From NCBI GenBank assembly GCA_024516035.1, contig CM044958.1:7646771-7710770 (forward strand): 64,000 nucleotides of DNA, given 5' to 3'. Source of the stretch: Bactericera cockerelli (lineage: Eukaryota; Arthropoda; Insecta; Hemiptera; Triozidae). The position numbers were made by a program, and so were the translations under genes. The notes below the pieces were generated by a model, which was given only the letters and a program-made list of their open reading frames with translations, made no database searches and was not told where the DNA came from. Of this stretch, positions 5,022 to 61,587 are shown piece by piece; position 1 is the stretch's first letter, and each line of letters starts with the position of its first letter.

Positions 5022-8000
5022 TCACTAGAAGATTGTCACACAGTAAAAATCACTGAACCGTAAAAGAAAAACTCGCAACAAAAAAAACCCTCACCTTTCT
5101 TGTTGGAATATTTGCCGTTATACTTTGTTGTGTGGTGTACGCCGCCGGGAGGGAGCCCGCCGCCCCCCGCATCCTCTGGCTCAGACTTGAGCAGCTTGGC
5201 GAGACTGCTTGACGCCGCCCGGGCGTCCAAAGTCCGCCCCCCGGTGGCGGCGGCGACTGAAGACTGGCTCTGGTGGAGGCTGGCGGTGGCGTGGCGACTG
5301 TGAGCGGTGGAGGTGTTTTTCGACCTGCAACAAGAGATGGGATCGTCCCCCCATGAGTAAATCAGCAGACCTCCGAGGCTCAGTGCTTGAGAGCATTAGT
5401 TGCTGACCCAGAGGTTGCGGGTTCGATTCCCGGCCGGACCAGAAATTCTGAGAAACCGGCACTTTGGGTCGCTGCGTTTGTGCCACCGGTGGCCCAACCG
5501 GTCCATTCCGTGCAGACACGTTTGTACCTCTGGTGGTACAACCGATAGTAATAATAATAACAAGAATAATATTGACAAAGGGCGTGATTAGTGCCTGAGA
5601 GGCAATCAATCTCTGCCCTCAACCGATCGTGAGAGTGTTAATAGAGTATAGAGAGAAGATCAGTATAATCAGTATAAAGAGAAGAGTGAGAAGTTGTACT
5701 AGATGTACATGAATATCAGAACATATCTGGACAGCTGTTTCGAGCTTATTTGCTCTCATCAGCAGGTAATAGTTCTGAATATTCATGGCATCAACAGACT
5801 AACCTCTCTATTTTAATCAGTATAAACAGAAAAGTGAGAAGTTGTACTAGATGTACATGAATATCAGAACATACCTGGACAGCTGTTTCGAGCTTATTTG
5901 CTCTCATCAGCAGGTAATAGTTCTGAATATTCATGCCATCAACTAACCTCTCTATTTTAATCAGTATAAAGAGAAGAGAGAATTTAATAATATACCCCCT
6001 AAAAGTACAACAGATATTGTACTTCAAGGGGATTTTAATGAAGAAAAAAAAATGTAAAATGAAATAAAATTTAAAAAAAAAAAAAAAAATCAATTGTGTC
6101 GGGGGGCACTCACCAGACCGACGCCTTGCTATGGCTGGACAGAAGGGGGTCGGACGTCGTGAGGGGTTTGGGCGGCGTGGGCCCCGCCCCCCACATGAGG
6201 TCGCCCGTGAGCAGGGGCAGGTCGTCGGGCGGCAGGGGGATGTAGGGCGCCCGCGAGACCGAGAGGTCCTCGCTGGAGGACACGAGTTCCAGGCCCCACA
6301 GGGAGTGCATGGAGTCCTCCAGCATCATGGGCGGCGAGTCCTCCATGCTGCTGAGGGAGGGGAGACTGCACGCGTCGGGGCTCTGGGGACACAAGAAGTG
6401 AAAGGGTGGGTTAGTTAAGCCGGTTTAATATCTAATCAATGCAAATGAAATAGGAGTAAGAACCGCCAGACATTGGGGGAATTTATGACATCATCTTGGT
6501 TTCGATGGACTCGGAAAGTAAGTAAGTAAGTTAAGCCGGTCAAACACCTACACGCATGTATGCATGAATAGGCAACAGGCTTTATAAATGGCCACACACG
6601 CTCATGCATGCATGCCAGTCAAGCCTGTTCATGCATGCATGTCAGTCAAGCCTGTTCATGCAAGCATGTCAGTCAAGCCTGTTCATGCATGCATACCAGT
6701 CAAGACTGTTCATACATGCATGTCAGTCAAGCCTGATCATGCATGCATGTCAATATGTGACTAGTTTGTACGCCTCCTCGTGGTTCACCTGGGCAACGCA
6801 TTGCCATGCGGTACTGACAATTTTGGTCAGATTTCCTGATCAAGTTTACTACATATATGTATTCTCACTTTGAGATGTGTAAAGTCATACAATAAATAAA
6901 TGTGGCCTGTTTTTAGGGAGGGAGGCAAAGGGACACAAGAAGTGAAGAGGATTGGGTTGGATAAGGAGGGAGACAAAAAACATTTACAGTCAAACATTGG
7001 ATAAAAGAAGAAAAAAAAATCTCTCTATTATAACTAAGTCTCTCCGAAGAGGTAATTGTAATTATTCTCTTAGGTAAATCTGACCTGAAAATTGTTCTCT
7101 TATATCAAGGTTTGACCCTATTACCGGGGTCTGCTAATTTCTTGTAAGGAAAATCGAGAATAGCCGGCGATTAGCTCAGTGGTAAAGATCGCTTGCCATG
7201 CGGAAGGTCCCGGGTTTGAACCCTAGAGCCGATGAAACATTTGTATTGAAAATTTGGTTACAGTAGTTTGTAAGGGATATCTTCCGGTGCGCTCGTGTTG
7301 AACCAGCATCTAAATGGGAAGTAATGTGTCACTTCTTGTTTCAAGTTTGACAACAGTGCAGGAAGAAAAAATTTCGCGTCCGACTTGGAAAAATTCTTGA
7401 ATTCTCAATGACCACTCTATATCTATATTAAATTGATAGCTTTTTTTCTCCTTTGGCTTAAGTAATCTCACGATTACTACTGTCCAACTTTCTATTTGAT
7501 ACCTACCGTAAATGATTTCAGACAACTCTGTAAAAAAAACTTCCTGTACCTACTGATAATACTGATATAAAAACACGGAAGTAATAAAATAATAAAGATA
7601 TTTGCATGAACACAGTGTGCACAACGGGTTTTCACCAGCTATTAAAAAATTGCCAATTACTATCGAGAAAAAAAAAATAATTACTCTTGTTTTCCCAAAT
7701 GAATATTTCCCGTTTTGTGTGGGACGATTTAATTTGATTCCAAGCAGATCAAATTTACTGCCATAACAGTAATTATTGTCGAACAAGTCTTGTGTACGGC
7801 ACATAAATTGAGTGACATTAAAACTATTGGAACAATCCTCGAGACATAATAATAATAATGCAGAAGTCTTGTCATCTTAGAAACCTGCAGACTGCAGAAT
7901 GGTCAGAAAATGCCTCAATATTCAGGAGTGAACCTCAGAAAACAAGACATGCACGTATTGCACGCGTCCACACTACACCTCTTTAATCCCCGGACATCGC

Positions 8001-12545: not shown

Positions 12546-15500
12546 GACGCACGGACCAATGGCTGAAAACAACTTTTTTGGTATCCTGAGGCTATGATTC
12601 GTCCAGAAATGTGAAAAACTGGGTAGGTCAAATTTTCGACGAATACAATACTTTCCTTATTATAGAGAAAGGAAAGTAAAATCACTGAGAGGGTGAAAAC
12701 TTAATTTAACCTCACAGCCTGAGTGGGGACTGGGAATAATAACCCTCGTGATGCTGGCAATTTCCAACCCCACTCAGGATGACTGAGGTGAATTTGAGAA
12801 GCGGGCTTGTGAGTTTCCAGCGAATGGAAGGTGAAACCCCCGTCGTAATATGACCATGCAATAGAAAGCGACGTTCAAACCAACAAAAACCAACGATTTT
12901 CTCATAATTTGGTTTCTATTTCTCCAGCTCAATAACTTTCGACCGACCAAAAGATCGATCAATCATTTTCTTTCTTTAAGTGTTTCACAGCCTTTTTTTT
13001 ATTTTGTAGCCATGAAACAAGAGCTACTGTCGACGCTTTTGGCTACCTATCTTATAGTATGCACCCTCCCCTTTGATGAGCGAGAAGTGATACAGTACCT
13101 GTCTTGCGCTGACAGTCTAAATAAATAAATACTTCCCAACTTCCCATTTAGGTGCTGGATCAACACGAGCGCACCGGAAGGTATCCGTTACAAACAACTG
13201 TAACCAAATTTTTTGTCGAACCTGGGACCTTCGGCATGGCAAGCGATTGCTTAACCACTGAACTATTCTGCAATATCTCCTTAAATATTTATTTTTCGTC
13301 AATGTATCTAGTTTTTACTCTTGTAAGAAAAAAAATAGTGGATTAGTTATTTATTTATTTATACAAGACAAACAACAATAAATTATTAACAGAGATAATA
13401 AAAAATGAACAATATTTACAAAATAAGGTATAAAAAAAAATACTTAAATTTAAATGTGCAATTGTCTTGTAATCCGTGGCGAAGTTAATGCCTTAAGCCA
13501 TTCTCTGCCACTTAACATCCCGACTTCATCAAGTATTTGAATTGAAATTTTGTTTCGAAAATGTAAAGAATATACATATCTCTATAAATAAAAAAGAAAA
13601 AAGGACTACCTACCTACCTACCTATGTTTGTTTGTTTGTCCGCAGTTGTTTAGCCAAAACGGTAGGTAAGAGATAGCGAAAAATGTCTCAGAATTGACCC
13701 CCCCCCCAAAACCATTACCGCTTTGTCTAGAAAAAATATAAAAAGTTCAAAAAGGCATTGCTGTCCAGCAGTACGGCCATGCCTTAGTAAATTTGAAATT
13801 TAGTCCCGTTGCAAAGCACGGGCTAACGGCTAGTTTATGTATATTCTTGCGTTGAATAATTTTTATTTTTTTTAAATAATAATAATAAATCATTTGTTTT
13901 ATTTTTAATATTTTTTTTTTATATATATATATACAGAGGACCCATCCTAAGCCATTTTTATTTGGCTTCTAAGATGATCCTCGTTTCGAGACTTACATGT
14001 GTCAGAGCGTCTGGCGACAGGGACCTGTCGTCCCGGTACGTGTAGAACGAGTGGCTGCCGGGCGACATGTCGCCGCCCATGGGCTTCGTGTCGCAGGCGT
14101 CGCTCAGCAGAGGGCAGTAGTTGTCGGGCAGAATGAACTCGTCCAGGAGATCGCCCATGAGCAGTTCCGAGGTGTCCTCGAGAGGAATGCACGCGTCTCC
14201 GGCCGTCGGCGCCAAATGGGTTAAATCTTCGGGCTCATGTTTCAACACTGCACAACAGAAAGAGAGGAGTCAAAGGGTTAAATATTTTTTAAATTAAATT
14301 GTTCATTTAGGACGGAATTATTAGACAACATCAATAACTTAAGTCATTTCTAAGCGTCGGTTTTCCCTATCTTACATAGTACGTAATCGGTGACTTAGCG
14401 CCACAGAGGTATTATAAAAACGTCTATTAATTCCGCCCTTAATCTTTATGGATTTATACCGCTCCATCCAGCCAATGGAGGGTAAAAACTCCTGTCGTGA
14501 TATGTAGTTAAAGCGACGTTAAACCAAAAAGAGACGGAAATGGGCTGAAATAATATGTTCAGTTATCTTAATGAAATAAATAATCGCACAACAAAAAAAT
14601 GGAGCATTGAAAAAATAATCATAATTAATAAAATGAATCCTGATTCAATTGTATAAAGGTAAAGACTTTATCTCAGACATCCAACTGCAACAAATCTCAC
14701 AATAATCGGACTTAATCAACGGATTACTCGGCAGACCTCAATAATATCAGTGTCTTTTTTCACAATAGATATTATATTCAAGTGTTACTAACGAGTGCAA
14801 TATTGGAAGATTTCTCAATTCGGTAGCTGATTGAGCGTCAAACGGTGTGGCCTACTATACAAAACCTTATCTCACGGTTTGATAATCTCAGAGAGTGTCG
14901 GAAAATTCACCATATTTTTGTTTATCAATCATTTTCAGTCCAAAAAGACGACTGTTCTTATCGTGTACGCAATTTGTGTGTCTTATCAGAATCGATAATA
15001 TATTATATTCTCTAAGTTAGTATTGTATATATCTTCCTAATTTATATAATAAATAGGTAGGTAACTATTTACTAGGAAGCGATAGGCTTCGATTTCTATT
15101 TGGTACAAGGTCTAGGTAATTTTTCTTGGCGTTACAAAACTGGCGTTGTGCTTGATAATAAATTATTTCCTTTGAATGCACTCCACTCTTCTTTTACTTG
15201 CACTTTCTTGCACTCCACTCTTAAATTAGTAATTAGTTAGAATAAATAAGCGATAGGCTTCGATTTCTATTTGGTACAAGGTCTAGGTAATTTTTCTTGG
15301 CGTTACAAAACTGGCGTAGTGCTTGATAATAAATTATTTCCTTTGAATGCACTCCACTCTTCTTTTACTTGCACTTTCTTGCACTCCACTCTTTACTTAG
15401 TAATTAGTTAGAATAAATTATGTTATTGTTTTTTTAAGTTTTAGGTACATTGTATGTGTAGAATAAAAAATTAATTTTATATTTTGTAAATTGTGTATAA

Positions 15501-16486: not shown

Positions 16487-19092
16487 GGAGAGGGAGAGAG
16501 AGATGAGAAAACAGTGAGAGAAGAAGAGTGAATGATGTAAAGTTTAATAAGGATTGGGAGGGAGGCAAAATAGGGAGAGAGAAGACATTGGGAGGGAATA
16601 ACATTGTCAGGTGAATCGATAGAGAAACCTAGTTTGATAACTAACCATCAGGCCCGTTGATTGGATGGGGAGAATAGAAATGGAATAGCGTACAAATAGA
16701 CTTGATACCCCGCCAGAACCGTTAATTAGGTGATGTATATTAAGCGTTGGGTGGAAGAGATTGTTATAGGCAATGACCCCACCCATTAGTTAGCAAATAT
16801 GTTATAATAGTAATAACACTCCTTAGTGGAAGGTAACCAACCACCAGGCGAGGTTAATGCTCAAAGCATTTCCTACCACCTAACTCTCAGAGTCTTATTA
16901 TTATGCGTGGTCTCAAACTCAAATTAATGAGGAAAATTCATGCATTGGGCGGGATTCGAACCAACGGATACGCTACCTGGATTACCAGACTAGCGCGTTA
17001 ACCACTTAGTAGAGTATTTTACCCATCTAGCTTCTGTCCTCTGTCGACATTACATACTACGTAAGTGCAGTATATAAACCGTCTGCATTTTTCAGTACCT
17101 TCCTTCTGCATTTTTCAGTTATGAGCAACAATGGAAGTGACATTTACGAATTAAATTGATGTTTCTAATTTTGCTGCCTGCGAGCGCCCATTTTCCGTGA
17201 ATGAAAGAGAAAGCTATTACGTCATAAACCTGACCTTTCACGATTTATGTACAGTATATACTACAATTATATAGTATGTAATGTTGTGTTGTACATTAAA
17301 ACAAAATATTTACTTTTATTATTTTTTGACTTTTTAAAAATGAAATAAATTTTACCTTCCTTCTTTCACAGTGGTCAGAGTGTCGGTTATACAGAAGTCG
17401 CGGGTTCAAAACCCAGCCCGGCAGTGACAAATGTTATCCTCCCAAAAAGGACCACATAATAATACGTATTGATCTAACTGCTAAAATACTCATTAGACTA
17501 AGTCGGGCAGTGCAAATAAGGTGACACAGTAAAACTTGTTTACAAGAGAAAACTTAATAAAAAGAGAACAATTTCCAGGTCAAATTTAACGTTATATAAG
17601 AGAAAATAAGCTCTTTATAAGAGAAAGAATATCCGATCACTGGAGTTCTCTCATATCCAGGCTCAACTACATAATCATTTCATCGACTAGTAGTAGTAGT
17701 AAGCTTTTATTGTCTGTCTGTCCCGGTAGCTCAGTGGTAAAGGCGGCACTCTGTGAATCCAGCGATTCCAGAGGTCGTGGGTTCGAAACCCATCGGGGAC
17801 ATAACAAGTTGACCTCCCATTTGGGATTTTTACCACATAATAATATGTCTTGGGCTTACTGCTGGAATGATGACACTTGAATAGTCCTAATCGGGCAGTA
17901 TAAATAAGGCGATATTATTATTATTATTTATTGAAATTTACTTACATAAATCATTAAGGGCGGGATAATTGCTTAAGGCAATCATCTCTACCATCCAACC
18001 CATGATCTAGCTAGCACCATATAAGTCGTATTTTTCTTTCTAACCAAAAAAAATTTCCTGGTTAGGTTTCTTCCAAATATTTCCATTTTATTCCAAGGTC
18101 ATTCGTAAAAGAAAAATGCGTTTGGTTACTTTAAAGATAAACCATGGACTCAACCTATAAAAGAACTGGAAGCAAGAATTTTTTACTTCCACTTTGGTTA
18201 ACTTTGGAAGTGGAAATTTTTCCTCTTCCAAAAGAAAAATGACTTGCTTCCAGTTTGATTCATTTTATTCCCGTTTGGTTAACTTTGGTTAGAAAGAAAA
18301 ATAGGGCTTTAAACTAGTTATTGAAAACATAGAACCACCACTCCCCACTCACTTGTGATGCCGGTGTTGTCGTCCGCGAAGGTCAGGTAGCCCGTGTTCA
18401 TCTCCTCTGTGCGAGGGGCGAATATCTTGGCCGTGGCGGCTTGGGGTCGCGCGGGCGGGGGCGGGGGCGCGGGCTGGGCTAGCACATTGCTCTCCGCGAT
18501 CAGAGCGCGCACGAGCGGACTCTCCAACTGAACGGTCGAGAAGAACTTGGCCGCCACGGAGTTGGGATCGGACACGACAAGTTTCGTGCAGTCCGTCGCC
18601 GCGAGGGGCGTCACAGTCGCGCTAGTTCCGCGCTGATCCGCTAGGGTCGCGGCGCTAGCTCTGACGGGCTCCGCTAGAGACCTCGCTATAGTTCCGTTTT
18701 GATCCGCTAGAGTGCAGTTCTGCTGTGGCCTCTGCACGTTCGGCACGGTCGTGTTCTGCGGCGGCAGCGGCGTCAGAAGCGACGCAAACGACGTGACCTT
18801 GGGAATCGTAATGCCCGCGGGCAGAGGGAGAATCTTCTCCAAGGGCGCTGCGAGCGGCGTGGACGGTCCAGTAGCGACCGCTGGTTTGGCAACCGCTGAG
18901 GGAACGACGCGCGCGGTTGGTTTGAACGCTGGCTGCGGTTTGGCTGCGACCGATGGAATGGGCACCAGGTCCGCTGGCCCGGCGACAACTGGCTTGCTGA
19001 AGGCTGCGGCGGCGACAGGCGGGGATGTCTTGGTAGATGCGGCTTTGGGTAGTTGGCACAGGGAGAATATTTGGTTGGGCTGCTCGATTCCG
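3934..19092 (-). CDS. sima: Hypoxia-inducible factor 1-alpha, C-terminal half (5 exons)
   Basis: HIF-alpha is the oxygen-labile subunit of the HIF heterodimer. Prolyl hydroxylases mark it for VHL-dependent destruction in normoxia; in hypoxia it pairs with ARNT/Tango and activates genes through hypoxia response elements. The exons are joined 18353-19092, 13997-14247, 6114-6382, 5095-5324 and 3934-4220, with phases 1, 0, 2 and 1 that all agree. The product is 591 residues and a TGA stop. Visible landmarks are a post-PAS segment beginning GIEQPNQIFSLCQL, the hydroxylation region LTHLAPTAGDACIPL (Pro at residue 260), a second region RAPYIPLPPDDLP (Pro 376) and a terminal LMNLLVSGCDVSAGYVC. The bHLH and PAS exons should lie at higher coordinates; none was seen up to 64000. 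Residue numbers count from the first full codon of the first exon in the window. Confidence 0.92.
4221..5094. other. HIF intron 874 bp, no repeat family recognised
   Basis: This intron separates the last two HIF exons. It holds two long A runs (about 4725-4748 and 4984-5019) and one GAAATCGGAAGTATTGT motif near 4546 that is shared with elements at 35205 and 57340. Nothing else is assigned. Confidence 0.6.
5095..5324 (-). CDS. sima: HIF-1alpha penultimate exon
   Basis: The exon is 230 bp, with acceptor CTCTTGTTGCAG before 5324 and donor GTGAGG after 5095. It completes a Trp codon, encodes 76 residues and leaves one base for the next codon. The content is low-complexity Ser/Ala/Gly-rich with SSSLAKLLKSEPEDAGGGG in the middle. 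The KSEPED part resembles the SUMO-type acidic motif preceding HIF degradation domains, but no domain is assigned. Its GC content is far above the flanking introns. Confidence 0.85.
5374..5530 (+). mobile_element. tRNA-derived SINE, family C
   Basis: A box-A-like GAGGCTCAGTGCTTGAGAGC is followed by a perfect box B (GGTTCGATTCC) inside GGTTGCGGGTTCGATTCCCG. The body is unlike families A, B and D. It lies antisense within a HIF intron. Confidence 0.65.
5572..5628. repeat. Hairpin module copy
   Basis: The pattern is AAAGGGCGTGATTAGTGCC, a short loop, GGCAAT, then CTCTGCCCTCAACC. This is one of the dispersed hairpin modules described under Findings. It follows the SINE C copy and a TAATAATAATAA run. 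Confidence 0.65.
5708..5787 (-). ncRNA. Hammerhead ribozyme, type I, copy 1
   Basis: On the minus strand, the 5' strand of stem I is followed by the core CTGATGA (5756-5762), stem II GAGC/AAATAA/GCTC, GAAA (5738-5741), a palindromic stem III ACAG/CTGT with no loop, and the cleavage triplet GTC (5730-5732). The outer part of stem I pairs CATGAATATTCAGAAC with GTTCTGATATTCATG. The inner stem I is CCTG against CAGA, so one mismatch weakens this copy compared with copy 2. Cleavage is expected between 5730 and 5729. Confidence 0.85.
5856..5935 (-). ncRNA. Hammerhead ribozyme, type I, copy 2
   Basis: The architecture matches copy 1: CTGATGA at 5904-5910, stem II GAGC/AAATAA/GCTC, GAAA at 5886-5889, stem III ACAG/CTGT, and GTC at 5878-5880. 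Here inner stem I is a perfect CCTG/CAGG. Every invariant core base is present. Cleavage at both copies would release a 148-nt linear RNA (5877 to 5730). The loopless stem III suggests activity as a dimer. Confidence 0.88.
5985..6045 (-). repeat. Single unit related to the 3' UTR minisatellite
   Basis: On the minus strand it reads TTCATTAAAATCCCC, TTGAAGTACAATAT and TTGTACTTTTAG, matching the ~60-bp units at 3608-3905. It is reversed relative to them and abuts the ribozyme array. Confidence 0.65.
6114..6382 (-). CDS. sima: HIF-1alpha exon with C-terminal oxygen-degradation region
   Basis: The exon is 269 bp, with acceptor GTCCCCAG before 6382 and donor GTGAGT after 6114. It starts in phase 0 and ends two bases into a Trp codon. 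It encodes 89 full codons, SPDACSLPSLSS onward. The VHL-degron-like segment is EDLSVSRAPYIPLPPDD. The proline of APYIPL is the expected hydroxylation site, but the vertebrate LxxLAP pattern is not kept: Arg is at -2 and Ser at -5. Confidence 0.92.
6604..6752. repeat. 27-bp minisatellite, about 5.5 copies
   Basis: The unit is built around CATGCATGTCAGTCAAGCC followed by TGTTCATG. The period is a multiple of three, which explains the repetitive open frame; I do not regard it as a gene. Confidence 0.85.
7163..7350 (+). mobile_element. tRNA-derived SINE, family G
   Basis: The head strongly resembles a tRNA: TTAGCTCAGTGGTAAAGATC, an anticodon-like loop TTGCCAT (GCC, glycine type), and box B in CGGGTTTGAACCC. 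The acceptor stem does not pair, so this is not a functional tRNA. The body AAAATTTGGTTACAG is shared with copies at 13133-13290 and 21958-22128. Confidence 0.75.
7351..7850. other. HIF intron sequence, nothing recognised
   Basis: AT-rich intron with no recognised repeat or coding signal. The open frames seen on the minus strand show no family resemblance. Confidence 0.45.
7880..8187 (+). pseudogene. LINE polyprotein C-terminus with Cys-rich motif, relic
   Basis: One frame reads CCLCKETPETAKHILCECGA, then an ILTPKEVTGISPKRILSYI segment and a stop at 8185-8187. The C-x2-C...H-x4-C spacing is typical of the zinc-knuckle-like tail after RNase H in I/R1/Jockey-type non-LTR retrotransposons. An in-frame stop lies upstream (CTTTAATCC), so the copy is dead. 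Probable 3' UTR runs to about 8330. Confidence 0.7.
8340..8405 (-). mobile_element. SINE A tail fragment with hairpin module
   Basis: TTTAGTGGAAGGTAACCACC, then AGGCGAGGTTAATGC, a loop, GCATTTTCTACCACCTAAC. It is the 3' end of a family A SINE on the minus strand. Confidence 0.75.
8729..8800 (-). mobile_element. SINE A fragment lacking the hairpin module
   Basis: It matches the SINE A tail (AGTGGAAGGTAAC, ACCACCTAAACCCTCAGAG, ATGTGGTCACAAAC), but the roughly 40 bp between two ACCACC copies that normally form the hairpin are deleted. Confidence 0.7.
9381..9462 (+). mobile_element. SINE E tail fragment
   Basis: GTGGTAAAGTCCTATGATTC, GCGCTACCCACTAAAATTGT, then a TTATTATTATT run. It matches the ends of the SINE E copies at 29657-29880 and 47336-47624. 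Confidence 0.7.
9729..9788. repeat. Perfect 26-bp hairpin, 8-nt loop
   Basis: The arm CTCTGATAAGTTACACCAAC (first 20 bases) is exactly mirrored on the right around loop GTAATATT. It lies inside the fold-back element but off its centre, so it is a separate inverted duplication. Confidence 0.9.
10291..10970. repeat. Hairpin module split by a hAT-like insertion
   Basis: The left part at 10291-10338 is AAAGGGCGGGGTTATTGCC-TAT-GGCAATCTCTTCCACC. The right part continues CACCCAATCCTTTAG from about 10951. The intervening 10339-10946 is the inserted element. Confidence 0.8.
10339..10946. mobile_element. Non-autonomous hAT-like element
   Basis: It has inverted ends CAGTGCCGGATTA and TAATCCGGCACTG, the classic hAT terminal pattern. 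The flanks CTTCCACC and CTTTCCAC are a slightly eroded 8-bp target duplication. Subterminal GCCAAGGGCCCCGCGC occurs near both ends. It is 608 bp with no transposase. Confidence 0.85.
11117..11215. repeat. Dispersed repeat with GCGCCACAG...AAAACGTCTA core
   Basis: Shared with 14380-14445 (TTAGCGCCACAGAGG, AAAAACGTCTATTAAT). It is followed by a small GAGACGAGAC palindromic stretch. The family is not identified. Confidence 0.5.
11408..11585 (+). mobile_element. Dispersed repeat family K
   Basis: CTAGAGGACTATAA, TTTAATGGCTTATAAAGAAA, and GGCTGGAGACCATCACT are shared with 25967-26170. It is probably a SINE or short retroelement body; no internal promoter was identified. Confidence 0.55.
11632..11690. 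repeat. Hairpin module copy
   Basis: AAAGGGCGAGGTTATTGCC-TGT-GGCGATCTCTTCCACC, with a G-T wobble pair in the stem. Confidence 0.75.
12009..12680. mobile_element. Repeat family R1, full-length copy 1
   Basis: It begins near CATCACACGACTTTCCTTATCC and ends in AAAGGAAAGTAAAA, giving inverted ACTTTCCTT/AAGGAAAGT ends. The middle carries GCGGCC-rich palindromes, and a (CA)n tract (12499-12540) sits at a fixed internal position. A second copy is at 27306-27952 and a partial one at 26769-27040. Confidence 0.75.
12743..12895 (+). mobile_element. 5S-SINE (family L) tail
   Basis: CCTCGTGATGCTGGCAAT, CCGTCGTAATATGACCATGC and GAAAGCGACGTT match the body of the 5S-rRNA-derived SINE. The 5S head is missing. 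Confidence 0.7.
13097..13124 (+). repeat. LINE-type 3' tail fragment
   Basis: ACCTGTCTTGCGCTGACAGT then CTAAATAA, identical to the 3' end of the retrotransposon at 44363-44399. Confidence 0.65.
13133..13290 (-). mobile_element. tRNA-derived SINE, family G
   Basis: Minus-strand copy of the 7163 element. It keeps the body ATTTGGTTACAGTTGTTTG and the GCACTTAAATGGGAAG-like end, and has a degenerate box B (GTCCCAGGTTCGAC). Confidence 0.7.
13460..13520. repeat. Hairpin module copy
   Basis: GTGGCGAAGTTAATGCC, CTTAAG palindromic loop, CCATTCTCTGCCACTTAAC. The upstream CAATTGTCTTGTAATCC is shared with 27960-28022. Confidence 0.65.
13579..13833 (+). mobile_element. Short non-autonomous Helitron
   Basis: It starts TCTCTATAAATAAAAAAG after an A. 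It ends with hairpin CCCGT/TGCAAAGC/ACGGG, seven bases, then CTAG before a T. TC start, 3' hairpin, CTAG end and A|T insertion are the Helitron hallmarks. It is 255 bp and lies in the HIF intron about 160 bp downstream (in transcript order) of the exon ending at 13997. Confidence 0.85.
13997..14247 (-). CDS. sima: HIF-1alpha exon with N-terminal oxygen-degradation region
   Basis: The exon is 251 bp, with acceptor TTCTGTTGTGCAG before 14247 and donor GTAAGT after 13997. The split codon with the previous exon makes Met. The segment MLKHEPEDLTHLAPTAGD then matches the vertebrate [26 protein letters not shown] keeps the LxxLAP prolyl-hydroxylation motif. It continues DTSELLMGDLLDEFILPDNY, a conserved arthropod-type acidic stretch, and ends SPDALTH in phase 0. 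Confidence 0.95.
14380..14522 (+). repeat. Two repeat fragments (11117-type and 5S-SINE tail)
   Basis: 14380-14445 matches the 11117 repeat; 14463-14522 (CCAATGGAGGGTAA, AAGCGACGTTAAACC) is the end of the 5S-derived SINE. Both are short relics in the HIF intron. Confidence 0.6.
15077..15418. repeat. Tandem duplication, 2 x 171 bp
   Basis: Units start AAGCGATAGGCTTCG at 15077 and 15248 and are almost identical, which implies a recent duplication. Each contains TTGCACTCCACTCTT. It lies in the 4.1-kb HIF intron. Confidence 0.9.
15420..16297. other. HIF intron sequence, mostly unassigned
   Basis: Apart from a box-B-like CGGGTTCGATTCTCG near 15750, probably a SINE relic, no feature is recognised. 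It is AT-rich. Confidence 0.45.
16298..16530. repeat. Purine-rich tract with (GA)n microsatellite
   Basis: An almost pure purine strand, with an uninterrupted GA run at about 16423-16481 and GGGA repeats on both sides. The open frames here are microsatellite translations. Confidence 0.9.
16742..16797. repeat. Hairpin module copy
   Basis: Read left to right it is GTTGGGTGGAAGAGATTGTTA...AGGCAATGACCCCACCC, the reverse orientation relative to 10291. Confidence 0.7.
16816..17012 (-). mobile_element. tRNA-derived SINE, family A, near full length
   Basis: It contains all parts on the minus strand: box A (GTGGTTAACGCGCTAGTCTG), box B (TTGGTTCGAATCC variant), GACCACGCATAATAATAAG, and the module (AATGCTCAAAGCATT). 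Confidence 0.85.
17368..17524 (+). mobile_element. tRNA-derived SINE, diverged family B
   Basis: GTGGTCAGAGTGTCGG, box B in GCGGGTTCAAAACCC, then ACCACATAATAATACGT and GTCGGGCAGTGCAAATAAGG, the family B end. Confidence 0.7.
17720..17930 (+). mobile_element. tRNA-derived SINE, family B, full length
   Basis: GTCCCGGTAGCTCAGTGGTA (box A) and GGTCGTGGGTTCGAAACCC (box B), with complementary acceptor-like ends GTCCC/GGGGAC. The body ends ATAATATGTCTTGGGCTTAC and ATCGGGCAGTATAAATAAGG plus a TTA microsatellite. Confidence 0.85.
17950..18003. repeat. Hairpin module copy
   Basis: TAAGGGCGGGATAATTGC-TTAAG-GCAATCATCTCTACC. The stem is ATTGC/GCAAT. Confidence 0.7.
18026..18306. mobile_element. 281-bp MITE-like element
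   Basis: Inverted ends TATTTTTCTTTCTAACC and GGTTAGAAAGAAAAATA flank an interior with further self-complementary pieces (CTTCCACTTTGG, CTTCCAGTTTG). It sits less than 50 bp from the donor site of the HIF exon at 18353. Confidence 0.7.
18353..19092 (-). CDS. sima: HIF-1alpha exon following PAS-B, with long Pro/Ala-rich insert
   Basis: The exon is 740 bp, with acceptor TTTCTGTTCACAG before 19092 and donor GTGAGT after 18353. The first base completes a codon; GIEQPNQIFSLCQL then aligns with the vertebrate SGIIQHDLIFSLQQT that follows PAS-B. Residues ~35-215 are low-complexity Pro/Ala/Thr/Ser (AAKPQPAFKPTARVV, PAPPPPPARPQA). The 3' end KIFAPRTEEMNTGYLTFADD is the arthropod segment preceding the first hydroxylation site. 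GC-rich codons contrast sharply with the introns. Confidence 0.92.
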
Positions 19093-30299: not shown

Positions 30300-31168
30300 G
30301 CTCCCTGTCCTGACTACTTGCTCGTAAGAGTCGCTAGACTACTTGCTTGTAAGAGTACAACTTCTCACTTTTCTGTTATACTGATTAAAATAGAGAGCTT
30401 AGTTGATGGCATGGATAATCAGAACTATTACCTGCTGATGAGAGCAAATAAGCTCGAAACAGCTGTCCCGGTATGTTCTGACATTCATGTACAATTGTAC
30501 ATTACAACTTCTCACTTTTCTGTTTATACTGATACTGAAGAGTAGCTAGACTACTTGCTTGTAAGAGTAGCTAGACCACTTTATCGTAAGAGTTGCTAGA
30601 CTACTTGCTCATAAGAGTCACTAGACTACTTGCACGTAAGAGTTGCTAGACTACTTGCTCGTAAGAGTTGCTAGACTACTTGCTCGTAAGAGATGCTAGA
30701 CTACTTGCTCGTAAGAGTTGCTAGACTACTTGCTCGTAAGAGTTGCTAGACTACTTGCTCGTAAGAGATGCTAGACTACTTGCTCGTAAGAGTTGTTAGA
30801 CTACTTGCTCGTAAGAGATGCTAGACTACTTGCTCGTAAGAGTTGTTAGACTACTTGCTCGTAAGAGTTGCTAGACTACTTGCTCGTAAGAGATGCTAGG
30901 CTACTTGCTCGTAAGAGTCACTAGACTACTTGCTCGTAAGAGATGCTAGACTACTTGCTCGTAAGAGTTGTTAGACTACTTGCTCGTACGAGTTGCTAGA
31001 CTACTTGCTCGTAAGAGATGCTAGACTACTTGCTCGTAAGAGTTGTTAGACTACTTGCTCGTAAGAGTTGCTAGACTACTTGCTCGTAAGAGATGCTAGA
31101 CTACTTGCTAGTAAGAGTTGCTGGACTACTTGCTCGTAAGAGTAGCTAGACTACTTGCTCGTAAGAGT
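30300..31168. repeat. 25-bp minisatellite, about 26 units, interrupted by a ribozyme unit
   Basis: The unit is GCTAGACTACTTGCTCGTAA then GAGTT. Unit variants recur as AGATGC-AGTTGT-AGTTGC, giving a 75-bp higher-order period in the middle. Two units at 30310-30357 are separated from the rest by the hammerhead-bearing insert at 30357-30540. Confidence 0.9.
30410..30489 (+). ncRNA. Hammerhead ribozyme, type I, copy 3 (decayed stem I)
   Basis: CTGATGA at 30435-30441, stem II GAGC/AAATAA/GCTC, GAAA at 30456-30459, stem III ACAG/CTGT, GTC at 30465-30467. The catalytic core is intact, but inner stem I is CCTG against CCGG, with a T-C clash. Unit ends ACAACTTCTCACTTTTCTG at 30357 and 30504 are direct repeats, as in the 5.7-kb array. 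Confidence 0.82.
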
Positions 31169-33904: not shown

Positions 33905-34128
33905 GTTTAACGTCGCTTTCAACTGCATGGTCATATAACGATGGGGGGTGTTACCCTCCATTCGCTGGAAAATCACAAACCAGTACCTCAAAATATAACC
34001 TCACGCAGTTTGAGTGGGGCTTGGAGTAGCCAGACAGCATCACGAGGTGTCTTCACCTCGCTAAAGGTTGCTTAATTTCGGTGATCCTACGAGAACCGGT
34101 GCATTCAACGCGCCATCGACGCTGACGC
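33905..34128 (-). mobile_element. 5S rRNA-derived SINE, full length
   Basis: On the minus strand the head reads ATGGCGCGTTGAATGCACCG, then GTTCTCGTAGGATCACCGAA and ATTAAGCAACC. This follows insect 5S rRNA through its internal pol III control region (known 5S: ...TCTCGTCCGATCACCGAAATTAAGCA). The body then changes to CACCTCGTGATGCTG... and ends AAAGCGACGTTAAACCC. This is the SINE3 class. Confidence 0.85.
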
Positions 34129-36094: not shown

Positions 36095-37586
36095 ATGAAT
36101 CACTTTGCACAGTTTCAAGTTGAAATCAAATTTGATGTTCTTTGACAATGCTCCTTGCATGTATGTAATATTCATGCGTATTGATCGATGTAAAATTTCA
36201 TAGATTTTGCAAGATTTAGAATATTTAATGATAATTTATTTCTCGTGATTTCTGTAAGTTCTTACAAAATAATTATGTACAGTAAAAAAAAAAAAAAAAT
36301 CGACTGCCATATCAAGAGGTTTTATTCCCTGACTGGGCGGATGCGATAGAACACAACCCGTATGATCACCACAATATTTATGACAGAAAAAGAAAAAAAT
36401 GTAAACAAAATTATAAAAAACATAGTTGGGCATTTTCGTGAAAACTGTTCAAATAAAAGGGTGCCAAAATATTGTCGATGTAAAGGTCTCCACTTGAACA
36501 CTTTAAATGGAGCACTGTAACTGAATTTTATTACTGTGGAGTAAAATTAAAAACTAACTATATTTCTTTAAATATATTATCTCTATTTTTATATTATCTC
36601 CAACCCTTATTAACATCATGAATTGCTTATTAGGTTACTACAAGCCACCAGTGAAAGGCTGGTTGTTTATTTTGTTTCTTTGTTAAAAAAAAAAATTGCT
36701 TCTCTCTACCCAAAAATGTATTTAGGTACATGTGTACAAAAATGTATTTGGGTACATAGTGAGTGGATGTATTAAAAAAATGTTTTAAATTTAATTATCA
36801 GAACTTGGTATTGTTTTGGACAGTTGGTAAACGCTGTCAAAAAAATACCAGACGAAAAACGATAATTTTAAATTCAAATGAATACATAAAGAAAGACCGG
36901 GTTTTTTTCGACACCTTTTTTTACACACCTGAGGAAATATTAGATAAATTCAGTCACTGAATCGGCAGGGGTATTAGAAATTAATCACTTGAGAGAACTT
37001 ATTTGAGTATGAGTGTTTCTTAATTTAAGGTAAAACAAATATAAATTAAAATAACTTTAACTGAACAAAAATTTAAAATTAATGAACAACAACAAAAAAT
37101 AGAAAAAAATTAACTTCTTAAAAATATAGTATCACAGACAGATAATTTCGAGAGAAAAAAATTAGCAAATGATTTTCTTTTCTAATATTTTTTTTTTCTT
37201 CTTGAAACTCAGGAACAACAATTGGATGGTAATCAGCACGCGGAACAAATCCAACAATTTATCAATCACTTATTATTTTTTTTTATCCACCACCAACACT
37301 GTCGAGAAATCGACTCGGAATTTAGCGTTCGCCGTCAGCTTATCTTGTCTCTCTGATGTGCGGTGATAGGTGGCGAAATTCCTAGAGACCTAGAGCCCTG
37401 GCCCAATGCACAATTAGGCGAGTATCACTCGAGTGACGGAGCTACGGTGAGCTCAGCTGATTATCACACTGGAGGAGAGATAAGTTCAGAACCGGGGACT
37501 ATGTGGAGAACAGGACGGAGCTCTATCTGAGATTGAACCGAGAGACCTGTGTCGCGATCGCGCCGTTTTCTTATCAAACCCCAGAT
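35661..37586. other. Unassigned AT-rich sequence
   Basis: Contains an A run at 36064-36091 and several low-complexity frames. No recognised repeat, RNA or gene. Confidence 0.4.
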
Positions 37587-38424
37587 CTGGATCCATAAGC
37601 TGGATCCATAGATCCATCCAGTAGCTGGATCCATAGATCCATCCAGTAGCTGGATCCATAAGCTGGATCCATAGATCCATCCAGTAGCTGGATCCATAGA
37701 TCCATCCATAAGGTGGATCCATAGATCCATCCATAAGGTGGATCCATAGATCCATCCATAAGCTGGATCCATAGATCCATCCAGTAGCTGGATCCATAGA
37801 TCCATCCATAAGCTGGATCCATAGATCCATCCAGTAGCTGGATCCATAGATCCATCCATAAGCTGGATCCATAGATCCATCCAGTAGCTGGATCCATAGA
37901 TCCATCCAGTAGCTGGATCCATAGATCCATCCAGTAGCTGGATCCATAGATCCATCCAGTAGCTGGATCCATAGATCCATCTATAAGCTGGATCCATAGA
38001 TCCATCCAGTAGCTGGATCCATAGATCCATCCAGTAGCTGGATCCATAGATCCATCCAGTAGCTGGATCCATAGATCCATTCAGTAGCTGGATCCATAGA
38101 TCCATCCATAAGCTGGATCCATAGATCCATCCATAAGCTGGATCCATAGATCCATCCATAAGCTGGATCCATAGATCCATCCAGTAGCTGGATCCATAGA
38201 TCCATCCAGTAGCTGGATCCATAGATCCATCCATAAGCTGGATCCATAGATCCATCCATAAGCTGGATCCATAGATCCATCCAGTAGCTGGATCCATAGA
38301 TCCATCCAGTAGCTGGATCCATAGATCCATCCAGTAGCTGGATCCATAGATCCATCCAGTAGCTGGATCACTAGATCCATCCATAAGCTGGATCCATAGA
38401 TCCATCCAGTAGCTGGATCCATAA
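37587..38424. repeat. 25-bp minisatellite rich in GGATCC, about 33 units
   Basis: The unit is CTGGATCCATAGATCCATCC followed by AGTAG or ATAAG. Each unit is itself partly palindromic (TGGATCCA). The minus strand is stop-free in all three frames because the unit lacks stops and its length is not a multiple of three. Hence the 313-residue MDLWIQLLDGS frames are not evidence of a gene. Confidence 0.95.
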
Positions 38425-39340
38425 GGCGGGTGGACTCACAACTCGGAGGTCGGTGTGGTTCGAGTCCCACGAATATGAAGAATTCGGGATTGAGTAATTC
38501 TGGCATCACATTTTAAGATTATCACAAATATTTGTGGAAAAAGGGTGTTTAGAATTAACTCTAGAAGACAATCTCACACTAAAATAATCTTGCGCAAATT
38601 TTCGAAAAATTTAAAATAACTTGAACAGAAAAAAGGTTTCACTTGAAAAATAATCTTGATCTTGTTGAAAAAAGTGAACATGGTTTTCATGTGTTTGTGT
38701 GCTATAATTATTAGGTAAATGTCCCAAGTAAATATCAACATCTTGTACCCAAGACAATATTCAAAACTGAGTTATAATTATCTTCGCATCTTCGTTTGAC
38801 GGCAGTTTTAGGACTGTCAGTATAGGAGGTAAGTTCTTTTATAATTCATACCGAGAACTTGGATCTGTGACTGAAGCTTTGTCACAGATATACATATTAT
38901 ACATTTCTATCGAAAATAAAGTCCTTAATCTGTTCCACCTATAAAAAATTAAATAAAAAAACTGTTGAATGTCGAGATATTCCTATCTAATCTCTTTTTG
39001 GGAAATTGGCAGATATAATCAAAACAGGGCTTCTTCACCTCATCCTAGGACACAGTTTTTTGATGATGAATTAGGTGTGACATCAACCAGTGTGATATCA
39101 CGTGGAGTGTGGGTGAATCCTACACAATTAGCAAAAAAAAAAAGAAAAAAACAGTGCAATCCATTTTTAAATAATAATCAAATACGTATTAATACTTGCG
39201 AAATTAGAATGTGATATACGAATTTGCTATATTGTAATTCATATCACACACACCATTTTCACGATTCCTTATCAAGATCGGCAGAAAATCTTCAATATCA
39301 TGGCCAAGTGTTTCTATGGCAACCTTATCTCTTCATCATC
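38425..39340. other. Unassigned sequence
   Basis: A tRNA-like scrap follows the minisatellite (GGTGTGGTTCGAGTCCCACG near 38450). Otherwise no family is recognised. Confidence 0.45.
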
Positions 39341-42711: not shown

Positions 42712-42924
42712 CTAGAGGGCTGTCGCCCGCTTCGCGGGCCGATAGCAGGTGTTGTAGTGGGAATTTCGAAAAATCCCGTCTTATTGCACATCTAGACTAT
42801 AAGACAAAGCTACCTACCAAATACCAAATTGGATTCCTAGGACTTACCAGTTCGGAGAAACAGTGATAAATCAGTGAGTGAGTGAGTCAGTCAGTCAGTG
42901 AGTGAGTGAAACTCTCTTATATAG
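42712..42924 (-). mobile_element. Short Helitron-like element
   Basis: On the minus strand it runs from CTATATAAGAGAGTTTCACT to hairpin GCCCGC/GAA/GCGGGC, then GACAGCCCTCTAG before T. It abuts the truncated LINE that follows. Confidence 0.65.
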
Positions 42925-44399
42925 TTACAAATGACATACAGCTCTCTAGGGACAACAAAATGGCTACCGTTCTCGTTCTATTTGACTTTTCAAAGGCCTT
43001 CGACCTTGTTTCCCATCGTCTGCTGCTCTCAAAGATGCAAAACATCTTTGGTTTTGACCCCGACGTCATTGCATGGTTCAGATCATACCTTACTGAACGA
43101 TTTCAATGTGTGTTGGGAGTCGACCAAAAAAAATCCAAATGGATGCCCGTGGTTTCAGGGGTTCCTCAGGGCTCTGTTTTAGGACCCCTACTGTTCTCGT
43201 TATTCATCAACGATATTCCTTCTTGTTTCTTGTCATCTCGCTTTCATCTATACGCCGATGACTTACAAATCTATTACTCCTTCGATCCTTCCGAGACAGC
43301 CGAGGCAGCCCAAGTCATCAATAATGAAATCAGTAATCTCGTTACGTGGTCGAAAAACAACGGTCTTAAAAATTAACTCTTCAAAAACCAAGGTACTTCT
43401 AATCAGTAGCCATCACACTCTTCGGCGCATTTCTGTTCCATCTCCATTTATTCAGGTAGATGGAGACGACATAGAGGTAGTCGAATCAGCCAAAAACCTT
43501 GGTATTATGTTTGACCGCACTCTCAGCTGGAAATTTGAAGTAAATAATATTAGGAAGAAAGTCTTTGGGGCACTCTGGTCTTTAGGTCGTCTTAAAAAAT
43601 ATCTCTCGTTAAACACTAAAAAGCTTCTAATTAAATCCCACGTCTTGCCACTTTTCGAATACTGTGCCCCACTTCTCCTGGGAATTACTCAGGTAGAAGC
43701 GAATAGATTACAACGGGCACAAAATGCTTGTGTCCGTTTTATTTTCAACGCTAGGCGCCGGGATCACATAACTCCTTACTTTAACCGTCTTCAATGGTAT
43801 AAAGTCGAGGACAGGAGAAAACTCCTCACTCTATTCCTACTCTACAAAATTATATCTTCAAATTCTCCTTCATATCTGTTCGAAAAATATTGCTTCCGTT
43901 CCAACATCAGCTCTCGAGAAACAAGGTCTCATCATCTCCTCCTTGAAATCCCATCCTGTAGAACAGAAGCATATCACAAGGAATTCCTGTCATCCTCAAT
44001 TGCCCTTTGGAACTCCATTCCACCCCCCATCCTCAACTGTAAATCTTTCTTTCGATTTAGATCCTCCCTTATTGAAGCTGTTGGCAAGAAAACAATCCCC
44101 CTTTAATCCTTATTATCCTTCCTCCTCCCTTAATGACTACCGTACCTGGTGTGAATGTATGATTGAATGTGATTTTTTTTTTTTTTCTTTCTTTTTGCTT
44201 TTCTTCTTTTAACTACTATAATTACTACTATTGTTATACTATCTTCCACTATTATTCCTTTTCTTGTTTTCTATTATCTTTACTCTGTAATTATTGTTAT
44301 TTTATTTCCATTGTATTTATACTCAAATAAATAAAGAGGTGCTTTGTTAAACTGTTGGCATAATGGGACTACCTGTCTTGCGCTGACAGTCTAAATAAA
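42925..44399 (+). pseudogene. 5'-truncated, frameshifted non-LTR retrotransposon (reverse transcriptase)
   Basis: The reverse transcriptase palm is clear: DFSKAFDLVSHRLL, SGVPQGSVLGPLLFSLF and the catalytic FHLYADD, followed by thumb-like SAKNLGIMFDRTLSW and a C-terminal region ending near 44106. One extra base in the A run near 43367-43371 shifts the frame between the halves, so the copy is inactive. Everything before the palm, including endonuclease and ORF1, is absent. It belongs to the Jockey/CR1-like group by motif style; exact clade not settled. The 3' UTR ends ATAATGGGACTACCTGTCTT...CTAAATAAAG at 44363-44399. Confidence 0.9.
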
Positions 44400-61010: not shown

Positions 61011-61587
61011 TACAGTAATTCTCTCTAAAATATGCATGGCCATGTACATTAGTACAAGGATGCGCCCAAGAATGGTCGACATTTGGACAAACGTTTTCAT
61101 CCCCAAACCGACATATGTACATTTGAAAATGCGGAAGTAGGCTAGTTGGCCGAACCGGCGACGATACGCACCGAAATTGCACCACAACAAATACAAGCCC
61201 GATAAGAGTCGCAATCTTGTTCCTCCTCAACTTTTGCGTAGTGCGTAAGCAGTCGGCTCCTACGTCAGCGATAGCGATAGATTTTGAGGAAGTCAGCACT
61301 GCCGAGCAACGTAAACAAACGGGAATCAATAAATTGGGCGTAGTTTAGTCGACTGTTAAACTGTGCTAATTGGTCAATTAAAAGTATGAACACTATTAGT
61401 CAAGTACATCGAGGAGGTAAAGCTAGTTAAATTTTATCTTGAGTTTCTTTTTTCTTCTCATTATTATTAATAACTTTTTTTCCATTTAGAGTTTAATTGA
61501 TTGATATTATATTGTTATGACGCCCAACTTAAAACACGAAGAAACCAAACGCAAAGTCCGTCTCAACATTATCATCAATAATATCAT
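61011..61587. other. GC-richer island with unrecognised minus-strand frame, then AT-rich sequence
   Basis: 61050-61329 is richer in GC and gives a 111-residue minus-strand frame starting MIPVCLRCSAVLTSSK with no recognised family. The remainder is unassigned. Confidence 0.35.

Follow-up and report, generated by a model that had tools for sequence, protein, structure and literature searches.

Why does an intron of what is most likely the HIF-1α gene of a psyllid contain two tandem hammerhead ribozymes (HHRs)? The locus lies in a 64,000-nucleotide stretch of the Bactericera cockerelli genome (the window), where an earlier note had placed the pair in a 789-bp HIF-1α intron, in the sense orientation. 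We put the probability at about 0.8 that the pair belongs to a non-LTR retrozyme of the metazoan type, dispersed in this genome, of which a recent copy inserted here in sense. What is new here is the anatomy of the retrozyme ends. The helper of animal retrozymes is unsettled, and the copies record where reverse transcription probably begins. In this genome, the probable start matches one of two end classes of a Penelope-like element (PLE) and resembles that of a lizard PLE in vitro, which makes the helper question directly testable.

The identity of the host gene is read from its sequence, and HIF-1α is the most likely assignment. The frame that spans the intron runs from ...KASVW to SKNTSTAHS. 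The exon before the intron contains APYIPLPPDDLPLL, which we take to be the second prolyl-hydroxylation motif of HIF-1α, and a separate open frame contains KHEPEDLTHLAPTAGD, which presumably resembles the first (Table 1). Four exon-like frames were joined by hand as a protein query; among the 7993 candidates sharing most words with it, the only ones scored, 53 proteins matched at E up to 0.1. The top match is from Cacopsylla melanoneura (61% over 63%, E = 1.6e-77) and the next from Cyamophila willieti, both Psyllidae. These two carry no HIF name; insect proteins named HIF-1α or “similar” are among the next ones. Pfam searches on five frames and a search of PDB sequences gave nothing useful for HIF, and the profiles PF08778 and PF11413 (HIF-1, CTAD) had no match in the genome, but neither did the controls. 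No bHLH/PAS exons were recognized in the window by characteristic motifs.

The HIF gene and the ribozymes are on the same strand, and the placement made by the earlier note holds: the 33-nt core CTGATGAGAGCAAATAAGCTCGAAACAGCTGTC occurs on the minus strand at 5910-5878 and 5762-5730, and these two cores are 148 nt apart inside a 148-bp direct repeat, in an intron with GT...AG borders and a continuous frame. A third core, absent from that note, lies on the plus strand at 30435-30467. The simple pattern CTGATGA..GAAA..GTC occurs three times in the window against 0.24 expected, and 2 of 100 shuffled sequences also reached three.

Table 1. Positions, within the window, of the ribozymes, the retrozyme copies, and the putative HIF-1α parts.
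Feature	Position	Strand	Basis or remarks
Upstream HHR	5872..5916	-	stem I and II pairs intact; predicted cut between 5878 and 5877
Downstream HHR	5725..5767	-	C-A mismatch in inner stem I; predicted cut between 5730 and 5729
148-nt RNA, putative double-cleavage product	5730..5877	-	spacing of the two cores
Retrozyme insertion	5659..5981	-	~2.1 units, period 148, 35% GC; 5' border near 5981 approximate
3' end of the copy in the HIF-1α intron	5659..5668	-	family end at 5668, 62 nt past the downstream cut, then one extra TATACTGAT unit (“tail”)
Third retrozyme copy	30354..30537	+	~1.2 units, one HHR; adjoins a 25-bp minisatellite
Putative HIF-1α intron	5325..6113	-	789 bp, GT...AG, reading frame continuous across
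Putative HIF-1α exon containing APYIPLPPDDLPLL	6114..6382	-	frame and protein match
Next putative HIF-1α exon	5095..5324	-	frame and protein match
Open frame containing KHEPEDLTHLAPTAGD	13958..14269	-	protein match

A scan with Rfam at gathering thresholds lists no hammerhead in the window. The top family below gathering is Hammerhead_HH9 (RF02275), with 34.2, 31.8, and 28.8 bits for the three copies (E-values of 8e-5 and 4.6e-4 over the whole window for the first two scores); none of the three reaches its cut-off of 52 bits. The cut-off of RF00163 (Hammerhead_1) is passed by five members of the window's family, here called family A, elsewhere in the genome (L062, L063, L070, L073, and L078), and the window copies are not among the RF00163 matches listed. 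Because Rfam alone was equivocal, we made an independent covariance test. The genome carries at least two further hammerhead families, B and C, and a model trained on 15 members of these two families only matches the window at 5872-5916, 5725-5767, and 30429-30473 (E 6e-8 to 1e-6) and nothing else there up to E 10.

Covariation among the families points the same way. When 23 hammerheads from families A, B, and C (22 distinct rows) are aligned, the share of cells that pair is 96.2%, compared with 74.5% in shuffles (0/500 as high) and at most 33% in every slid control. Sixty cells are changed on both sides, against 20.7 in shuffles (0/500 as high). The number of pairs with a change on both sides (7/12 versus 6.6 in shuffles, 308/500 as high) and of further pair types (15 versus 16.0) is not above chance. 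Since the aligned hammerheads are related, shuffles overstate the support for the fold; the slid controls and the independent model weigh more. We conclude that these are type I hammerheads with a complete catalytic core, the fold of which is backed by between-family covariation.

The earlier reading of a type I hammerhead of the retrozyme and Penelope kind with a minimal stem III is borne out, and its details call for adjustment. The stem III sequence ACAG/CTGT is there as described, and it is an 8-nt palindrome without a loop, so that a single molecule forms only 2 bp with the loop AGCU; the 8-bp form needs two copies (−11.1 kcal/mol predicted for the bare duplex). Both units had been read as closed by stem I, which is true of the upstream one; the downstream one has the C-A mismatch in that stem. 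As for the covariance check that had been proposed, it fails at the Rfam gathering thresholds and succeeds with the model trained on families B and C. In the upstream copy, the lowest-energy fold pairs CAGC with core GCUG, and the active fold is predicted to lie 6 kcal/mol higher; the difference is 9.8 kcal/mol for the downstream copy and 8.0 for the 30-kb copy, each with one stem I mismatch (U-C in the latter), and these energies, computed without tertiary contacts, are a rough guide only. The upstream HHR in the HIF pre-mRNA is probably still able to cut. The downstream one is probably weakened because of its stem I mismatch.

The pair is not special to HIF-1α and belongs to a family with thousands of copies dispersed in the genome. 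Exact matches to the 33-nt core number 1687 in 565 Mb, a count that rises to 4551 when three mismatches are allowed (a reversed-pattern control gave 0), and ~0.5 such cores are expected per 64 kb. In a sample of consecutive loci along contig C1 (30 with an exact core, reduced to 25 after five sharing flanks were removed), the loci are scattered, and 24 of the 25 have a single core. The unit is 144-148 nt long, with a spacing of 144 in 26 of 43 cases (duplicate loci not removed). The whole element in the HIF-1α intron is ~323 bp, with no room for a reverse transcriptase (RT) or endonuclease; its extent had been given as 5659..5965, of which the first border stands, and the other moves to about 5981. 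Identity to the family consensus is 99.3% for its upstream unit, and the insertion is therefore young; it is 96.4% for the downstream unit and 95.0% for the 30-kb copy. The median over 94 units is 97.1%, a value biased upward because the units were chosen by similarity or exact core. No long terminal repeat was visible by eye in the inspected copies, and the AT content beside insertions (67% and 63%, versus 63% further away) does not point to a target preference for AT. Read in the frame set by the ATG within CTGATGA, the 144-nt unit is open over all its 48 codons. We rejected a coded protein, as the 94 units have 170 non-synonymous and 48 synonymous changes, against 166:52 expected without constraint.

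Most of the retrozyme copies compared share one 3' end. We compared 53 loci (59 minus six with shared flanks). The cut is at consensus position 33; in 37 of these loci, the copy ends 62-64 nt further on, at 95-97 (positions 95 and 97 are indistinguishable where the tail begins TA, as the next unit does), and in 51 it ends within 89-106. Conservation drops at this common end (52 units). In many loci, the end is trailed by ACTGAT, TATACTGAT, or longer units, giving tail repeats of 6, 9, and about 15 nt. Two extra ACTGAT units are carried by 66 copies of a 28-mer, at up to one mismatch; a poorly chosen tail pattern with two free bases was found in 0/79 loci. The 63-nt spacing does not hold as a general rule, as families B and C deviate. 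Of the eight family B loci, three diverge early; matches in the other five mostly end 70-94 nt beyond the cut, but those of L061 and L076 run on to 142-146 nt. In family C, no clear end is seen.

The 5' ends, by contrast with this single 3' site, are variable among loci. In the C1 sample together with the 30-kb copy, 15 of 26 overshoot a whole number of circles by 0-36 nt, versus 6.7 expected (Rayleigh P = 0.009), in a test that is rough since the sampled loci must contain the core. The clustering is weak in a set picked by similarity (8/27 versus 6.9 expected; Rayleigh P = 0.019), and the HIF copy exceeds whole circles by 41 nt. Of 51 loci, eight have flanking repeats of 28 to about 90 bp with one copy at most 10 nt from the 3' end (P ≤ 0.002, judged against 2550 mismatched pairs). 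Two of these eight (W30 and L040) are located within tandem repeats; in the remaining six, 23-377 nt separate the end of the upstream copy from the 5' border. Because the upstream repeat is mostly away from that border, the flanking repeats are not simple target-site duplications. No flanking repeat was found at the HIF copy.

The same genome contains an autonomous PLE. There are 25 GIY-YIG hits with frames of up to 838 aa, and the frame of L079 contains both RVT_1 and GIY-YIG. PLE copies (L079, L080, and L082-L096), some with long open frames, are arranged head-to-head and in tandem at C2:55.7, C6:41.6, C7:27.0 and 37.2, and C10:0.33 and 1.24 Mb. The stretch between tandem PLE frames bears its own HHR, different in sequence from that of the retrozyme. 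Beyond the hammerhead, the retrozyme has no similarity to the one PLE family examined, and with nothing else shared with that family, the idea that it is a simple deletion derivative of the PLE was rejected. No relative of the PLE protein could be confirmed among viral contigs that were scanned.

PLE 3' regions could be compared for 22 of the 25 hits, over 190 nt. Eight make up a near class. Five of these scored 63-64 nt beyond the HHR cut; the other three, L093, L082, and L080 (67, 71, and 78 nt), are placed with them by treating the excess as a short imperfect chance extension. Of the remainder, eight end 128-147 nt past the cut, five match over the whole 190 nt, and the last is too short to classify. 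One outer end of each class is present in four pairs arranged head-to-head (C2:55.7 Mb, C7:27.0 Mb, C7:37.2 Mb, and C10:0.33 Mb). The retrozyme shows one end site only, where the PLE has two classes, and the near-class end (~63-64 nt) coincides with it; estimated by hand, the probability of such a coincidence by chance is about 2% if a single PLE site is considered and about 10% if both are.

In the mechanism that we propose, retrozyme transcripts would be cut by the hammerhead and closed into circles. A Penelope-like RT would then start at a fixed internal site downstream of the hammerhead and go round once or a few times, leaving a tandem with a variable 5' end. The template would be a circular or uncut multimeric RNA. 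A linear HHR-cut template is excluded because its 5' end is only ~62 nt away from the fixed site: an RT starting there would reach that end without copying the ribozyme, and inserts contain the core and more. This end anatomy fits an RT start inside circular or multimeric RNA, as reported in vitro for the lizard PLE. For that element, reverse transcription is reported to begin internally, at two neighboring sites of the RNA, and to extend both strands of the DNA (PMC11167929); the ends of the psyllid PLE fit such a two-site internal start.

A bolder idea, which we offer tentatively and at low confidence, is that the HHR acts as a positioning signal: RT would start ~62-64 nt past the cut both in the PLE and in a retrozyme of different sequence, and the PLE enzyme would copy retrozyme circles an approximately whole number of times. 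If this is true, retrozymes are the minimal RNA that a PLE can copy. The role of the PLE RT as helper is suggested by these ends and is not proven, because retrozyme and PLE share no sequence beyond the hammerhead. One point against this route is that PLE copies pair head-to-head, yet both-strand hits occur in only 2 of the 29 retrozyme loci analyzed (L006 and L015).

Mobilization by a LINE, in the manner of a SINE, is unlikely. A LINE RT would recognize the 3' end TTTATACTGAT, and slippage would make the tandem tail. The single-place 3' end with its short tail repeats, the variable 5' ends, and the copies with two extra ACTGAT units would all follow, and short tandem tails are also common in LINE-mobilized elements; in addition, RVT_1 frames that we read as LINEs occur in the window and in L069. 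However, the one LINE 3' end examined, which is in the window, lacks TTTATACTGAT, and the retrozyme ends shortly downstream of the HHR, as the PLE of this genome does. The flanking repeats, too, are long for a LINE.

Retrozyme insertion also leaves little room for a pair that has been domesticated to regulate HIF-1α by cutting its intron, as has been proposed for amniote intronic hammerheads and reported for the ribozyme of mouse Cpeb3; we consider this very improbable. The sense orientation, the intact upstream core, and the predicted positions of the upstream cut, 235 nt past the donor, and of the downstream cut, 405 nt short of the acceptor, would suit such a role, and in the Cpeb3 case, inhibiting the intronic ribozyme raises CPEB3 protein (PMC10919898, in the part consulted). 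Against this, the pair is one among the thousands of cores in the genome, at a density that makes one in the window unremarkable, its upstream unit is young, and its downstream core already carries damage. At this locus, it is possible from the sequence that the pre-mRNA is cut, that the 148-nt RNA is released and circularizes, and that splicing is affected; the last is so because splicing is lowered by fast intronic ribozymes but not by slow ones (same part of PMC10919898). Our default expectation is that there is no HIF-specific function, and no sign of one was found in the sequence. The insertion is a young member of a widespread family, and one of its two cores is damaged. The HIF-1α case, in this one genome, is a caution that an intronic ribozyme can be an ordinary insertion.

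Still less credible is ordinary hammerhead satellite DNA, spread by unequal crossing-over or DNA circles with no retrotransposition. Tandem units of 144-148 nt and an array on contig C7 with a spacing of about 710 bp are what a satellite would offer, but nearly all loci of the C1 sample are scattered single cores, and random break points would be needed where the 53 loci share one fixed end with tails, some with flanking repeats. A chance hammerhead-like sequence, for which the empty Rfam gathering scan might speak, is already refuted by copy number and the independent model, and between-family pairing speaks against it too.

The retrozyme reading places the family close to known systems. The metazoan non-LTR retrozymes described by Cervera and de la Pena (2020; PMC7229834), in the text of that paper examined, likewise have a type I HHR within short tandem units of low GC, number in the thousands, and co-exist with HHR-bearing PLEs. 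Their target-site duplications, when present, are long; long flanking repeats accompany a minority of the psyllid loci, with the upstream repeat mostly away from the 5' border. Their units measure 150-450 bp, so that those of the psyllid are slightly shorter, and they form RNA circles, which are predicted for the psyllid family. The fixed 3' end 62-64 nt past the cut and the short tandem tails are psyllid features not found in that text, which already mentions retrozyme-like repeats in insects and proposes PLEs as helpers of animal retrozymes on the grounds that both carry hammerheads and occur together. Among open-licence PMC papers, no titles or abstract openings were found on psyllid retrozymes or fixed retrozyme 3' ends.

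PLEs with HHRs (Frangieh et al. 2024; PMC11167929, in part) share with the window element the HHR and genomic copies that end a short distance downstream; in the lizard PLE, the cut is at +26 and RT starts at +111-118 of the ORF. Unlike PLEs, the window element encodes no RT or endonuclease and shares only the HHR with the psyllid PLE. The intronic hammerheads in the section of PMC6155905 used here are alike in being in an intron, and the best Rfam score in the window is for HH9; they are single and conserved, whereas the psyllid ones are tandem, young, high-copy, and below the HH9 gathering score. The same section describes newt satellite hammerheads active as dimers, whose short stem III can similarly be extended by pairing of two copies; the psyllid stem III differs as an 8-nt palindrome without a loop, and its dimer form is predicted from sequence.

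Other repeats and hammerheads were noticed along the way. The C7 array (C7:17218609-17234923, including L059) is a long run of hammerheads over the Rfam Hammerhead_1 cut-off, spaced by about 710 bp or multiples, and the unit examined belongs to family B. A degenerate family B hammerhead at L069 2000-2044 (+) lies shortly upstream of an exon that by eye resembles a DEAD-box helicase, in the same direction, and is probably another intronic hammerhead. In the window, the RT fragment read as a LINE is at 42906-44106 (+), with RVT_1 in 42906-43376. Repeats of 209-224 bp, 90-92% alike, have tRNA-like Rfam hits at 17720, 21684, and 59335, the first alone over gathering; they are probably a tRNA-derived SINE, and ARAGORN called no tRNA. 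A weak tRNA-like match (22.2 bits, below gathering) is at 5372-5438 (+), in the HIF intron and opposite to the gene strand. The 5S rRNA-like sequence at 34032-34126 (-), with diverged relatives near 61586, 56314, and 12744, is probably a 5S-derived SINE. The 25-bp minisatellite next to the third retrozyme copy spans 30538-31168, and a long minisatellite at 37464-38435 has open frames on the minus strand.
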